Positions 5,739-59,931 of a stretch of 64,000 nucleotides of DNA are shown here, piece by piece (the first letter of the stretch is position 1; each line of letters opens with the position of its first letter). Below the pieces are notes generated by a model. That model saw nothing but the letters and a program-made list of their open reading frames with translations. It was not told the DNA's origin and did not search any database. Source of the DNA: Hymenobacter glacieicola (GTDB lineage: Bacteria > Bacteroidota > Bacteroidia > Cytophagales > Hymenobacteraceae); contig NZ_BMGS01000003.1 of assembly GCF_014640315.1 (NCBI RefSeq), positions 62,001 through 126,000 of the forward strand. Reading direction: 5' to 3'. Made by a program: the position numbers and the translations under genes.

Positions 5739-5845
5739 GCACGCCATCCTGAGCGTAGCGAAGGACTTGGTTATGCGCGACCGAGACGTTGTTACATCCT
5801 ACATCACGCATGACCAAGTCCTTCGCTACACTCAGGATGGCGTGC
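5739..5845. repeat. Intergenic inverted repeat, CATCCTGAGCG type
   Basis: Two arms of about 38 bases (5739-5777 and 5808-5845) pair almost fully: the left arm has CATCCTGAGCGTAGCGAAGG and the right arm its complement with a single change (TACACTCAGG). The loop is about 30 bases. It lies between the convergent cdaA and kbl genes and could act as a two-way terminator. The core matches the elements at 54716-54832 and 59266-59365. Confidence 0.85.
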
Positions 5846-15901: not shown

Positions 15902-15986
15902 CAAGGCAGAAAGCCGAAGGTGTACGCCTTCTCTTCCAGAACACTGCTTAACCCGCTGAACGTAAAAAAAGTGCCGGCTACTTACG

Positions 15987-16233
15987 TGGTGAAATGGTGA
16001 GGTGGTGAAATGGTGAGATGGTGGGTTAGTGATTCAGCGAGCTAAAGCTACCTGTCCTCCGGAGCCGCGGGAAGGGCCTTAGCACGCTAAAACGAGTTGT
16101 TGGTACGAGGTTGTGCTACCGTAACAAGGTCCTTTGCAAGCTCAGGATGACAGGTGGGTTTTACAGACTGACGAGCGGCTTTAACTTGCTCATTTACTAT
16201 TTCACCACTTCACTAACTCACCACCTCACTCAC
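15987..16233. repeat. Composite repeat with GTGAG-type tracts at both ends (degenerate core)
   Basis: The 337 bases between rlmN and the thioesterase hold no gene. The left end (about 15987-16040) is built of GGTGAAATGGTGAGGTGGTG-like units; the right end (16190-16233) is the complementary form, ending CACCACCTCACTCACC. Between them lies half of a core arm (AAGGTCC...CTCAGGATGACAGG, about 16124-16154) whose partner is eroded. The right tract reaches into the thioesterase gene and supplies its TGA stop. Compare 54651-54942 and 59235-59401. Confidence 0.75.
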
Positions 16234-16654
16234 CCCGCAACCGGGCGGCGTATTCCTGGCTGAGGGGCAGCAGCTTGCGGGTGGTGTAGTTGAAGCCGAG
16301 CATACCGGTTTTGGCGCGGGCAATTTCGCGGCCGGTTTGGTTTTTCACCCAGTACACTAGGTCGAAGCCGTACTTGTTCAGGTCGGTAGCGGCCATTTGA
16401 ATGTGGAGGATGTCGCCCTGAAACCCTTCGCCTTTGTACTCAATGGCCACATCGGCCATAATGTGGCCCAGGCCCGTAGCCGGGTCATATTCCGCGCGAC
16501 CCAGGTGGCGCAGAAACTGCACCCGCGCCTCGTGCAGGATGCTCAGCAGGGCGTCGTTGCCGAGGTGGGCCCCGTAGTTGAGGTCGGTGATGCGAATGGG
16601 AATTTCGACGGTGAGCAGGTAGAATTCGGGAAGCTGGACATTTACGCGGGCCAT
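16226..16654 (-). CDS. Acyl-CoA thioesterase, hotdog fold (4HBT family)
   Basis: A 142-residue hotdog-fold thioesterase, expected to hydrolyse acyl-CoA or a related thioester in the cytoplasm. RITDLNYGAHLGNDALLSIL (about 22-41) contains the asparagine and aspartate/histidine region of the 4-hydroxybenzoyl-CoA thioesterase class; LGHIMADVAIEYKGEGF and RAKTGMLGFNYTTRK follow in the usual order. Its substrate cannot be read from the sequence. The final codons and the TGA stop (16226-16228) lie inside the GTGAG-type tract of the neighbouring composite repeat, so the last two or three residues are probably repeat-derived. Confidence 0.87.
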   Translation of the reverse strand: MARVNVQLPEFYLLTVEIPIRITDLNYGAHLGNDALLSILHEARVQFLRHLGRAEYDPATGLGHIMADVAIEYKGEGFQGDILHIQMAATDLNKYGFDLVYWVKNQTGREIARAKTGMLGFNYTTRKLLPLSQEYAARLRGE

Positions 16655-24881: not shown

Positions 24882-24974
24882 GTCATTCCGAGCGGAGCGA
24901 GGAAGCTGGCGTACGGACGTTGAGCTATTCTTGCAACGTCCGCACGCCAGCTTCCTCGCTCCGCTCGGAATGAC
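24882..24974. repeat. Intergenic inverted repeat, GTCATTCCGAGCGGAGC type
   Basis: Arms of about 41 bases pair nearly perfectly (GTCATTCCGAGCGGAGCGAG and its complement at the right end), with loop GAGCTATTCTT. It lies between ftsY and rimO, 19 bases after the ftsY stop, and may end the ftsY transcript. The ends GTCATTCC...GGAATGAC are also found in the element at 61663-61744. Confidence 0.85.
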
Positions 24975-50431: not shown

Positions 50432-50471
50432 GGATTTAGACGGATTCATCGGATTACACGGATTCGTTCTG
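50432..50471 (+). repeat. GGATTTAGACGG repeat, copy 1
   Basis: A 40-base copy starting GGATTTAGACGGATTCATCG and ending GGATTCGTTCTG. It is the exact reverse complement of copy 2 (50600-50639), so the pair could fold into a long stem with a 128-base loop that carries a terminator hairpin. Confidence 0.9.
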
Positions 50472-50529
50472 CTGAGCTTGAGCTACATGATGCGCTAAGC
50501 GGTGAACCGCCAGCCATAGTTCGACAACG

Positions 50530-54650: not shown

Positions 54651-54942
54651 CTGTGAAGTTGCGAGATTGTGAAGGGGTAGTGGCGAGTTGGTAACGTAGT
54701 GAGGCAAACCCGGCTGTCATCCTGAGCATTGCGCGCATCAAGCGCCGCCGAAGAACTTATCACGCCTGAACGAGCATCGTTGCAACAACTCGTTCAGGCG
54801 TGTCAAGGTCCTTCGCCAGCCCAGAATGACAGACGGCTTTTCCAGATGACAAGTGGTTTTCGAGCTGACGGGTAGCTGCTTGCACCAGCGCTAACAAAAG
54901 CCCACTGAATCAGTCACTAACTCACTGACTCACTATTTAACC
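54651..54942. repeat. Composite repeat: GTGAG-type tracts around a GTCATCCTGAGC core
   Basis: The gap between two minus-strand genes is filled by this element. Left tract (54651-54705) of G/T-rich GTGA units; core 54716-54832 with arms GTCATCCTGAGCATTGCG and its degraded complement ending AGAATGAC, and an inner palindrome CGCCTGAACGAG...CTCGTTCAGGCG; right tract (about 54903-54942) CACTAACTCACTGACTCACT. The right tract supplies the TAG stop of the PhyH gene at 54933-54935. Confidence 0.8.
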
Positions 54943-55748
54943 AAGTGAAGAAACCGCAGATAGAACGGGGTAGGGCTGTTTTCGTGCTTGGGCTCGTACT
55001 TGCCGGCAATGATGGGCACGTACATCACCCGGCGGCGGGAAGCCTCGCCCACCAACGGCGACTGGGCCACGCGGTGCCACATGCGGCCATCGTGCACGGT
55101 CAGGTCGCCGGCTTCGGTTTCCACGGCTACCTCGTGGGGGTCGGGGCCTACGTCTTTGTAGTATTTCTTGCGAAAGAGAATGTCGCGCAGGCCTTGGCGG
55201 TGAGTGCCCGGAATCAGACGCAGGCCACCATTGGTGACGGGAGTACCATCAAGATGGACGCCTACGTTGAGCATGGGCCCAATTTTCTTGCCGTAGAATA
55301 CGTCGCGCAGGGAGTCGGTGTGCCAGCCCATCTGCGAAAACTCCGACCCGGCCACGTTCACGTAGTGGTTGATGACCAGCCCATCCTTCTCGTTTTCGCC
55401 TACCCGACCACCGGGCGCTTCCAACAGCGGAAACAGGGCCCGAAACCGCGGATCTTGCAGAAATTCGTTTAAAACAGGGCTGTGGTGGGAAGCAAAGGCG
55501 AAGCGCTGCACAATAGGTGAGCCATCCACATCCTTGCCGTACTTAATAGGCACCCCGTTTACTTTCTTCACGTCGTCGGCCAGCCACTGGCGCTGTACCT
55601 GCTGGGAAGCCTGCAACAGGCTTCGAACGGTTTGTGGGGAGATAAAGGCGCGAAAGTGCAGAAATCCATGCTCCCGAAAAAAGGAAAGCTGCTCGGCCGT
55701 CAGGCTCTCTCCTAGGGTAAAGCGAGGATAAGTTTCTTGTAAGGGCAT
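54933..55748 (-). CDS. Phytanoyl-CoA dioxygenase (PhyH) family protein
   Basis: A 271-residue Fe(II)/2-oxoglutarate dioxygenase. LTAEQLSFFREHGFLHFRAF near 16-35 opens the PhyH domain; MGWHTDSLRD (His and Asp ligands, near 139-147), RLIPGTHRQGLRDI near 176-189, and VHDGRMWHRVAQSP (distal His, near 220-233) complete the HxD...H site, with a following Arg for 2-oxoglutarate. Probable hydroxylation of a lipid or small metabolite; the substrate is unknown. The ATG at 55746-55748 is used; a TTG two codons earlier is possible. The TAG stop lies in the GTGAG-type tract of the neighbouring repeat. A TATCTTTG element stands 38 bases upstream. Confidence 0.88.
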   Translation of the reverse strand: MPLQETYPRFTLGESLTAEQLSFFREHGFLHFRAFISPQTVRSLLQASQQVQRQWLADDVKKVNGVPIKYGKDVDGSPIVQRFAFASHHSPVLNEFLQDPRFRALFPLLEAPGGRVGENEKDGLVINHYVNVAGSEFSQMGWHTDSLRDVFYGKKIGPMLNVGVHLDGTPVTNGGLRLIPGTHRQGLRDILFRKKYYKDVGPDPHEVAVETEAGDLTVHDGRMWHRVAQSPLVGEASRRRVMYVPIIAGKYEPKHENSPTPFYLRFLHLVK

Positions 55749-57683: not shown

Positions 57684-59240
57684 ATGCTCTTCACGCCCAG
57701 CCCCATGCTGCTCAAGCTGCTCTACACCCGCGGCAGCCTGCACAACACGCCCGAGGGCGTGGCCTTCAGCATCAAGAATCGTTTGGATACGGTCCGCGTG
57801 ACGCGCATTGACCACGTCCGGATTGGGGAGGTGACAATTCCGGCCGAGCAGATTGCCCTGGACTTGGGCGACGGAAACGTACGGCCCGCCACGGTGCTTA
57901 ACGCCGATGGCTCCGGGATTAACCTGCCCGTGGGCCAGGCTGCTACCTTTCATCTGGCCACTAGTCCGCTCCCGGAAGGCATGCACAAGGTGCAGGTGCA
58001 GTTTGCGGCCGAGCCCTTCGGCGACCTGACCGTGGAGGTAGAAGACGCCATTGCCCACCAGCCGGAAAACCGCACCCGCATTCCGCGCTCCGAGCAGGAC
58101 GACTACTCCGAAGCCGCCGTTCGGGCCCGGCAACAGTTTGCCGAAGAGTTTACGGGTCAGCAGTTTCATCACCTGAAACAATACTCCTTCGATGCCCACG
58201 ACCTGCAAGGAAACTGCGAGCATTTCACGGGGGTAGCCCAGATTCCGGTGGGCCTGGCCGGGCCCCTACGCGTAAACGGCGAGCATGCCCAGGGCGACTT
58301 CCTGATTCCGATGGCTACCACCGAAGGCACCCTGGTAGCTAGTTATAACCGCGGCATGCAGGTGCTTAACCTTTGCGGGGGCGTGAAGTGCACCGTTATC
58401 GGCGACGCCATGCAGCGGGCTCCGGTGTTCGTGTTCGATGATGCCCGGGGGGCCCGGGACTTTGGGCAGTGGGTAGCCGCGGAGCTTGAGCGGATTCGGC
58501 CCGAGGCGGAAAGCACCTCCCGCGTGGCCAAGCTCCAGTACATCGACACCTATTTGGCCAATAAATTCGCCTACCTGCGCTTTAACTTCAGTACCGGCGA
58601 CGCGGCAGGCCAGAACATGGTGGGCCGCGCCACCTTTGCGGCCTGCTCCTGGATTCTGGAAAACTACAAGGGCGCGCCCATCCGCCATTTCTACCTCGAG
58701 TCCAACTTCGCTACCGACAAAAAAGCCTCCCAAATCAACGTGATGCGCACCCGCGGCAAGCGCGTGGTAGCCGAGTGCGTTATCAAGCGCGACATTCTGC
58801 AGCAGCGCATGCGCGTGACCCCGGAGCAGCTGGCCTACCACGGGCAGGTTAGCAACGTGGGCGCCTTTCTGTCGGGGGCCAACAACAACGGGGCCCACTC
58901 GGCCAACGGCATCACGGCCCTGTTCATTGCTACTGGCCAGGATGTTGCCAACGTGTCGGAGTCCTCGGCCGGGGTGCTCTACTCGGAAGTTACCAAGGAA
59001 GGCGACCTGTACCTGAGCATCACCATTCCCTCCCTGATTGTGGCGACCCACGGCGGCGGCACCGGCCTAGCCACCCAAAATGAGTGCCTGCGGATGCTGA
59101 ACTGCGTGGGCCGCGGCACCGTGAACAAGTTTGCCGAAATAGTGGCCGGCGTGGTGCTGGCCGGGGAGCTAAGCCTGGGCTCCGCCATTTCCTCCTCCGA
59201 TTGGGTCAGCAGCCACGAGCAATACGGCCGGAATCGGTGA
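57684..59240 (+). CDS. Hydroxymethylglutaryl-CoA reductase with N-terminal beta domain
   Basis: Reduces HMG-CoA to mevalonate with two NADPH, the committed step of the mevalonate route to isoprenoids. The 518 residues hold an N-terminal beta-rich domain (about 1-125, LLKLLYTRGSLHNTPEGVAF) and the catalytic domain with EHFTGVAQIPVGLAGPL, ATTEGTLVASYNRG (Glu), FATDKKASQIN (Lys), THGGGTGLATQ and a conserved His near the C-terminus (VSSHEQYG, near 511), which together are class I-like. The beta extension is standard in Bacteroidota. The TGA stop (59238-59240) lies in the GTGAGTAGTGAG tract of the neighbouring repeat. It implies isoprenoids are made from mevalonate in this organism. Confidence 0.92.
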   Translation: MLFTPSPMLLKLLYTRGSLHNTPEGVAFSIKNRLDTVRVTRIDHVRIGEVTIPAEQIALDLGDGNVRPATVLNADGSGINLPVGQAATFHLATSPLPEGMHKVQVQFAAEPFGDLTVEVEDAIAHQPENRTRIPRSEQDDYSEAAVRARQQFAEEFTGQQFHHLKQYSFDAHDLQGNCEHFTGVAQIPVGLAGPLRVNGEHAQGDFLIPMATTEGTLVASYNRGMQVLNLCGGVKCTVIGDAMQRAPVFVFDDARGARDFGQWVAAELERIRPEAESTSRVAKLQYIDTYLANKFAYLRFNFSTGDAAGQNMVGRATFAACSWILENYKGAPIRHFYLESNFATDKKASQINVMRTRGKRVVAECVIKRDILQQRMRVTPEQLAYHGQVSNVGAFLSGANNNGAHSANGITALFIATGQDVANVSESSAGVLYSEVTKEGDLYLSITIPSLIVATHGGGTGLATQNECLRMLNCVGRGTVNKFAEIVAGVVLAGELSLGSAISSSDWVSSHEQYGRNR

Positions 59241-59401
59241 GTAGTGAGTAGTGAGTAAAAGGTACGTCATCCTGAGCGCAGCGAAGGACCTTATCACGCA
59301 GAAACGAGTCGTTATTTTGACTGCTGTTTTAGCGTAATAAGGTCCTTCGCTGCGCTCAGGATGACAGATAGTTTTAACTCACTACTCACCATCTCACCAC
59401 C
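59235..59401. repeat. Composite repeat: GTGAG-type tracts around a perfect hairpin core
   Basis: The best-preserved element. Left tract GGTGAGTAGTGAGTAGTGAG (from 59237) contains the HMG-CoA reductase TGA stop. Core 59266-59365 has perfect 29-base arms that start GTCATCCTGAGCGCAGCGAA. Right tract ACTCACTACTCACCATCTCA ends next to the TAG stop of the lipoprotein gene (59401-59403). So it fills the gap between two convergent genes from stop to stop. Confidence 0.9.
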
Positions 59402-59931
59402 TACAGCGGATCGGCGGTTACTTTAAAGCGCGAATCGGTGCGGATGGTGATGTCTCGGCTGATAGGCTTGCGGATTTTAGCTTCCGTGGACAAGGTGTAG
59501 CTACTGGCTTTCACGTACTTGTCCAGCTTCTGGGAGGTAGGCGTGAGCTGCAGCGTGTTCACGCCGGTCGGCACGTTATCCAGCGAGGCCAGCAGGATTT
59601 TGTCGTTGCTGTCGGTGCTGATGTAGATGGTGATGCTCTGCAGAAAGTCGAAATTCTCGGAGCTGGGGTCGGTGATGGAGAGCGTGAGCCGGTCGAGCTT
59701 TACGTCCTTTACCAGGTTGGCGCTGGTGTTTTCGTTTTTGAACTTCTCGTCGGAGCGCGTGGTCACGGCAATGGGCGTGAGCGGCACTACTTGCCCGATG
59801 GGGAAAGCGCTGGCAATCTTCACCGACTGCGAATCCTCGATGTAGAAAGTCAGCAGCTTATCAAGTTTGTCACAGCTGGAGAGGAAGGCCAATACAACCA
59901 GAAGTGGCGTTAGGAACAGGATTTTTTTCAT
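59401..59931 (-). CDS. Lipoprotein, function unknown
   Basis: A 176-residue predicted lipoprotein: signal peptide MKKILFLTPLLVVLAFLSSC with lipobox cysteine at 20, followed by DKLDKLLTFYIEDSQS. The rest is beta-rich (VKIASAFPIGQVVPLTP, VKLDRLTLSITDPSSENFDF, IYISTDSNDKILLASLDN), with no family I recognise. It may be an immunoglobulin-like envelope protein. The TAG stop (59401-59403) sits right at the edge of the composite repeat. Alone on the minus strand, convergent with HMG-CoA reductase. Confidence 0.7.
   Translation of the reverse strand: MKKILFLTPLLVVLAFLSSCDKLDKLLTFYIEDSQSVKIASAFPIGQVVPLTPIAVTTRSDEKFKNENTSANLVKDVKLDRLTLSITDPSSENFDFLQSITIYISTDSNDKILLASLDNVPTGVNTLQLTPTSQKLDKYVKASSYTLSTEAKIRKPISRDITIRTDSRFKVTADPL

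Follow-up and report, generated by a model that had tools for sequence, protein, structure and literature searches.

Two families of bacterial intergenic repeat have been described that come close to the arrangement found here. In the passages of Di Nocera et al. 2013 (PMC3733652) cited here, the CGTC-tagged REP superfamily is made up of units with a stem of 8-9 bp, a loop of 4-5 nt and a CCA-like tail, which carry a (C/T)GTC outer tag followed by AT, form head-to-head dimers with structured spacers, lie in convergent or co-directional gaps, often less than 20 bp from ORF ends, and are in some cases nested in larger palindromes. The same passages name no dedicated transposase for the CGTC REPs, state that GTAG REPs often provide TAG stops, and mention the Rickettsia palindromic elements. 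The TAACTGA heptamers, in the cited parts of MacGregor 2015 (PMC4679880), are exact direct repeats of 7 nt in the intergenic DNA of some Bacteroidetes, which may overlap gene ends, carry stops in three frames in one orientation and lie mostly before start codons in the main genome studied. As far as the cited passages extend, the first of these texts already covers REP dimers at gene ends, their overlap with stops and their nesting within palindromes, and the second covers heptamers closing all frames and overlapping gene ends.

The locus examined here is the gap of 160 nt between the TGA of an HMG-CoA reductase gene and the TAG of a convergent, small lipoprotein-like gene, the latter without a Pfam match (Table 1). 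This gap is a nested palindrome, in which an inner, REP-type head-to-head dimer lies within an outer palindrome whose arms consist of 7-8-nt GTGA units. Folded from TGA to TAG, it forms a single hairpin of -103.1 kcal/mol, compared with -39.9 (sd 4.0) for shuffled sequences, none of 200 shuffles being as good. An earlier sequence-only reading had described a perfect-arm hairpin of 29 bases, and the arms are indeed complementary over exactly 29 nt counted from the outside, with 40-nt arms at 93%. It was also right that GTGAGTAGTGAG tracts frame the core on each side, in inverted orientation, and that the second of them runs up to the lipoprotein TAG, which adjoins it. The further statement that both tracts carry stops in all three frames holds for the reductase side, where each frame meets a stop within 18 nt (TAA in one of the three), but not for the lipoprotein side, where the tract leaves frame 2 open.

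The first GTGA unit ends in the reductase TGA (59238-59240), and to this extent the tract can be said to supply it, as had been proposed. However, the reductase C-terminus VSSHEQYGRNR* is identical at 30 of 30 loci (29 relatives and the present genome, ranked best among 57 genomes that gave a match), whether a tract is present or not, and we conclude that the TGA is native and that the tract begins on the stop.

In the window (the whole 64,000-nt stretch of Hymenobacter glacieicola DNA that was analysed), the core pattern has two matches, namely the two arms, and none in 100 shuffles. GTGAGTAGTGAG, allowing up to two mismatches, is only weakly over-represented there (6 matches against 2.67 expected, a number reached by 4 of 100 shuffles), and the three exact matches among the six are all in this gap; its real significance comes from the genome-wide scan of 4-mers and periods described below. 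No family reached its gathering score in an Rfam scan of the window. Two further composites, near 15987 and 54651, had likewise been said to touch stop codons. Each contacts one stop, the inverse tract of the former containing the TGA of a thioesterase-like minus-strand gene (16226-16654) and that of the latter lying at the TAG of a PhyH-like minus-strand gene (54933-55616), but neither has a stop on its other side. A separate repeat in the window consists of four GGATT boxes at 9-nt spacing (GGATTTAGACGGATT..GGATTACACGGATTCG, ~50443-50480; C3:112442), with very similar runs in the same genome at C4:157812 and C4:428523, and a GATT/AATC signal of period 9 was present in all four genomes scanned for it.

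Table 1. Coordinates of the features discussed, in window positions unless a contig is given.
Feature	Position	Strand	Remarks
REP dimer, same model	5743..5841	.	convergent gap; oriented tract within 70 nt: none
Second composite	15986..16233	.	GTGA tract ~15986-16034, degenerate REP dimer 16054-16151, inverse tract ~16196-16233
REP dimer, sister type GTCATTCCGAGC	24882..24974	.	oriented tract within 70 nt: none
Third composite	54651..54935	.	weak tract, degenerate REP dimer 54734-54830, inverse tract
HMG-CoA reductase gene	57684..59240	+	PF00368, E 1e-128
Left GTGA tract	59237..59258	+	7-nt spacing, stops in three frames
Whole hairpin	59238..59396	+	both tracts and REP dimer in one stem; z -15.8
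REP dimer	59266..59365	.	100 bp, head-to-head, CGTC-like, 29-nt perfect outer arms; family covariation
Right tract	59377..59400	-	minus-strand GTGA units, ends at lipoprotein TAG, one frame open
Small lipoprotein-like gene	59401..59931	-	TAG 59403-59401
GTGA palindrome in RNase P RNA gene, P12	C4:91419-91509		own genome
In-frame GTGA palindrome in valS	C4:433079-433151		own genome; 27 residues
AGTT-wrapped terminators, G062	C1:550210-550288, C7:130799-130875, C7:1075808-1075888		

Both layers of the palindrome belong to dispersed repeat families. With up to two mismatches the REP core pattern has 37 matches in the genome, its reversed control having none, and 22 of the 37 make up 11 inverted pairs, nine of them spaced 70-72 bp apart. 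At one mismatch or fewer it is found in this genome and in 20 of 24 others of the genus, compared with none of 14 genomes outside it. A set of 30 loci provided 19 distinct two-armed elements (two loci had no second arm at the threshold and the remainder were duplicates), and a covariance model built from these 19 gave at least 147 strand-wise matches in the whole genome, a lower bound since 150 of 1550 candidates were scored. Within 1.22 Mb of the genome it gave 120 strand-wise matches, merged by hand into 61 places at E values up to 0.1, with sister REP types such as GTCATTCCGAGC counted in. The arms covary as one long hairpin, with two-sided changes at 17 pairs compared with 8.5 in shuffled alignments and none of 500 shuffles as high. 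The model elements were picked by the similarity of both arms to the consensus, so that unbiased covariation can come only from the free NNN columns; the column pair 13/88, left free during that choice, is paired in 19 of 19 elements through five pair types.

The outer tag of this family recalls the CGTC REPs: C or T stands ahead of the tag at 108 of the 122 ends of the 61 places, and GTCA makes up the first four bases at 93. The dimers, mostly head-to-head, also share with them, as described in the cited passages of PMC3733652, the AT after the tag, the structured spacers, the nesting of some copies in larger palindromes and the placement in convergent and co-directional gaps, often close to ORF ends. 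Of the 61 places, 24 lie in convergent, 33 in unidirectional and 4 in divergent gaps, the totals for all gaps longer than 30 nt being 142, 557 and 166 respectively. Judged by inspection, however, the single unit TCCTGAGC-NNN-GCGAAGGA has two tandem G-A mismatches, a 3-nt loop and no CCA tail, and so falls outside the stem and loop definition given there, for which reason we call the family CGTC-like. The covariation of the arms as one long hairpin and the position of some copies in word tracts are further differences from the CGTC REPs of that text. A REPIN/RAYT system has a RAYT/Y1_Tnp gene encoded in the genome. In a search restricted to the Y1 family, PF01797 gave no match in this genome, 5 of 14 control genomes being positive, and among relatives inspection showed no clear tie between the presence of a Y1 gene and REP number; we therefore rejected a RAYT-driven origin.

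To characterise the tracts, we scanned 201 kb of intergenic DNA (gaps of 30-800 nt) for every 4-mer recurring with a period of 5-12, and GTGA/TCAC at period 8 stands out. GTGA triplets of period 8 number 62 in intergenic DNA against 0.01 expected, with one in 908 kb of coding DNA from which 30 nt at either gene end were excluded, and the preferred spacings are 8 (143), 7 (24) and 16 (20) over a background of about 4. Genes were called by codon score at a coding share of 78-80%, so that some are missed and starts are rough, while stops are exact for called genes. The repeating unit is GTGA followed by 3-4 variable nt, and the arms are inverted and, by inspection, complementary (for example at C3:132261-132350, with no REP inside); compared with the exact direct heptamers of the cited parts of PMC4679880, to which the tracts are otherwise alike in being intergenic repeats of about that period at gene ends with three-frame stops in one orientation, these are words with a variable spacer, in inverted arms, and they start at stops. 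A signal of AATT at period 7 is also over-represented in intergenic DNA, with 12 triplets in this genome and 6 in G040.

The two families occur together more often than chance would have it. An oriented tract pair lies within 70 nt of 10 of the 61 REP dimers, none having a pair in the wrong orientation, compared with 165 of 4000 random intergenic boxes. Among 40 gaps with a tract of at least three units, both arms are present in 24, and 6 of those 24 contain a REP dimer. Tract and core are therefore associated, being found together above the random rate, yet separate, since most dimers are free of tracts; an obligate composite was rejected on these counts, and the claim that the reductase gap is one element gives way to two nested repeats that also occur apart. 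Association of the tracts with the core elsewhere, which the sequence-only reading had set as a test of its idea, is thus borne out above random boxes, but the two are usually apart.

Where the tracts do occur, they sit at gene ends in a definite orientation. Of 944 gene ends, 45 have a sense GTGA tract that begins no more than 30 nt from the stop, compared with 2 of 944 for the opposite orientation, and in 44 of those 45 it begins within 12 nt. The proposal that the elements are placed at gene ends is strongly supported by these counts and, for the REP places, by their mostly convergent and unidirectional gaps. The tracts appear to be phased to the stop codon, GTGA offsets after stops peaking at 3-4, 7, 11-12, 18-20 and 27-28 nt as read from the histogram. 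Ten of the 45 tract ends have TGA as their stop, against 91 of 944 gene ends overall, and the phasing is not merely a consequence of a shared TGA, because the 14 tract ends with TAA are similarly offset (first GTGA at 2, 3, 3, 3, 3, 4, 4, 4, 5, 5, 8, 10, 11 and 12 nt). Of the 45 tract ends, 34 have every frame shut within 30 nt, compared with 42 of the 812 others.

Elsewhere in the genus, such palindromes are made of different words. In a 4-mer scan of 0.4 Mb from each, AGTT of period 7 was found in G065 and G020, and GTGA together with GGGT of period 8 in G040. There, a GGGTAG tract wraps the same GTCATCCTGAGC REP dimer as here and contains the stop codon, as an AGTTGA tract in G065 does around another REP. 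In G062, three AGTT tract pairs among the matches listed form inverted arms around canonical U-tract terminators. Of 61 genomes of the genus, this one included, 35 contain GTGA palindromes and 39 contain AGTT palindromes, while reversed-word controls gave none in any of the 61; with both words in 22 and neither in 9, a scheme of one word per genome was rejected. The present genome has 12 GTGA palindromes and no AGTT palindromes, and outside the genus there was a single GTGA match, in 1 of 14 genomes. Words also differ in their content of stop codons: in frame-closure counts from other genomes, hand-picked among the matches listed, all three frames are closed within 24 nt at 14 of 20 ends of AGTTRA palindromes and 10 of 16 of GTGA palindromes, but at only 2 of 28 ends of AGTTG(T/C)C palindromes.

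Comparison of the same gap between species, as the sequence-only reading had suggested, gave gaps with and without a tract beside an unchanged reductase C-terminus. The lipoprotein gene lies within 1.2 kb downstream of the reductase at 12 of the 30 loci, its product ending in VTADPL* at 10 of the 12, and is the adjacent convergent neighbour at 9 of the 30. By inspection of these nine gaps, that of the present genome alone holds the composite of tract and REP. A U-tract terminator occupies the gap in G003, G053 and G071; G049 has a GTGA palindrome without a REP dimer, the reductase stop again being TGA; G002 has a GAGTA palindrome following TAA, also without a REP dimer; G055 (L135) has REP arms GTCATTGCGAGCC..GGCTCGCAATGAC around an ordinary terminator; G015 has another hairpin; and the G051 gap, 26 nt long, contains a short GC stem. 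Such differing contents indicate that hairpins of different origin occupy one site. At G005:C1:3399587-3399975 the HMG-CoA reductase frame is interrupted, giving a two-piece match with one internal stop.

Similar palindromes are found at two sites inside genes. The tip of helix P12 of RNase P RNA, surveyed in 51 of the 61 genomes, falls into a short class of 26-46 nt (21 genomes) and a long one of 87-120 nt (30 genomes), and the 30 long forms are 15 of GTGA type, 6 of AGTT type and 9 others, by simple counts with word classes that we set. On a tree of the remaining RNase P RNA, with bootstrap values not settled, the long P12 needs 15 changes, at least 10 of them forced by well-supported branches, and the long forms show no more clustering on the tree than chance would give (143 of 500 shuffles as low). 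The word in P12 goes with the word elsewhere in the genome: GTGA palindromes elsewhere accompany 14 of 15 GTGA-type P12s against 16 of 36 others (p 0.0014), and AGTT palindromes likewise accompany the AGTT type (p 0.013), the species in both comparisons not being independent. The second site is the valS loop ahead of VATSRPET, for which we examined 40 of 80 loci and parsed 35 (two of the 5 unparsed being from Hymenobacter). This loop has 7 residues in 14 of the 20 parsed Hymenobacter loci, which include two MAGs, and 15-30 in 6; by inspection five of the six long loops, and that of the present genome, are word palindromes of several different words, the latter read in frame without stops. Inspection of the P12 and valS sites revealed no clean empty site and no target-site duplication, which together with a related transposase would mark a MITE, and the changes there resemble replacements. 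Thus the palindromes come, go and change word between species at P12 and at one gene gap, and the outer palindromes sit at gene borders up to native stops, in the P12 tip and in the valS loop.

STRR sequences, short tandem repeats within cyanobacterial RNase P RNA genes, were reportedly described by Vioque in 1997; the P12 repeats here differ in their palindromic arms and in a word that varies between genomes. Rickettsia palindromic elements are palindromes lying in frame within protein genes, unlike the present ones, which are built of tandem words and are mostly intergenic.

An intrinsic terminator has a GC stem followed immediately by a U-run; a scan of 59100-59600 for such structures, which allows loops of 3-8 nt only, found none, and the run of four T after the core sits inside the folded stem. 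Genome-wide, T-runs lie on either side of the REP dimer at 28 of 61 places compared with 17% of random boxes, and on both sides at 6 of 61 compared with 0.9%; for the 24 dimers in convergent gaps the numbers are 10 and 4 respectively. Two-way termination at this gap would be plausible, and the enrichment of T-runs speaks for it, but the terminator scan and the convergent-gap T-run counts do not favour it.

We lean towards the explanation that this is spreading palindromic DNA which is confined to gene borders and would serve there as a two-way 3'-end hairpin, our confidence being held to little better than even mainly by the scan and the T-run counts. Arms would spread through intergenic DNA by copying, or by template-switching at hairpins, together with slippage, which would also keep the arms complementary, and purifying selection at stop codons would fix where the arms end. 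Against this account stand the apparent phasing, which suits arms that begin at a stop codon more than arms that only come to a halt there, the lack of target-site duplications and of a Y1 transposase (the only family searched for), and a long P12 state unclustered on the tree. Between convergent genes the hairpin could then form the 3' end of both mRNAs, replacing an ordinary terminator, and would for that reason be tolerated or useful in convergent gaps.

Two other readings are possible, and each seems to us doubtful. A hairpin in a gap, be it a terminator, a REP dimer or another, might lengthen its stem outward, fold-back copying at the replication fork adding a favoured word 7-8 nt at a time, and growth would end on reaching a stop codon, a start codon or the base of an RNA helix; if favoured words shift between lineages, the same site would come to hold different words in different species. 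Alternatively, the outer palindrome might be mobile, of a MITE- or REPIN-like kind preferring stop-like GTGA/TAG targets and moved by a putative mobilising enzyme, with REP dimers entering the loops of tract palindromes. The hot spots at P12 and valS would suit such an element, as would an inner core like GTTTGATGTTC, which by inspection recurs in many GTGA copies across genomes, and REP dimers within target palindromes are described for other CGTC/GTAG families in the cited passages of PMC3733652. Set against this are the different words borne by the same site in different genomes, the lack of a Y1 transposase in this genome (the only family searched for), and the three G062 terminators, which are wrapped by tracts and are not mobile.

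Ordinary microsatellite drift, that is, functionless short tandem repeats left by polymerase slippage, we consider unlikely. The cited parts of PMC4679880 consider slippage at 7-nt repeats in other bacteria, and the near absence of tracts from coding DNA would agree with it, but a 4-nt word that by inspection stays constant while its spacer varies, arms that by inspection are complementary and oriented placement at stops speak against drift. Quite unlikely, although compatible with the other explanations, is a translational or mRNA-stability element, in which a hairpin at the stop codon would stall ribosomes or block 3' exonucleases; tract starts so close to the stop fit it, and E. coli REPs up to 15 nt from a stop are reported to stall ribosomes in the cited part of PMC12306157, yet it leaves the words and the intragenic sites unexplained. 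The ready-made stop module of the sequence-only reading, in which GTGA tracts would be selected at gene ends to close all frames on both strands and catch read-through or frameshifted ribosomes, can draw on the frame closure at tract ends in this genome and at AGTTRA and GTGA palindromes, on periods 7 and 8 that rotate the frames and on the phasing to the stop, but is very improbable given a reductase stop that is native with or without the tract, the open frame on the lipoprotein side, palindromes inside RNase P RNA and in frame within valS, and the stop-poor AGTTG(T/C)C type, because of which we rejected it as the shared function.

In the open-licence literature searched, we found neither species-dependent word palindromes interchanging at a gene gap, P12 and valS, nor Hymenobacter together with intergenic palindromic repeats or a REP term, and the 12 papers in which the REP core sequence occurs do not, judged by title, deal with bacterial repeats. 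The mechanism behind palindromic DNA that would spread along gene borders, the preferred explanation, is open to direct testing, since one and the same site is long in some species and short in others. These palindromes amount to a natural experiment that bears on the origin, spread and lasting pairing of such structures where no transposase is known, and on the question whether the hairpins take the place of ordinary terminators.
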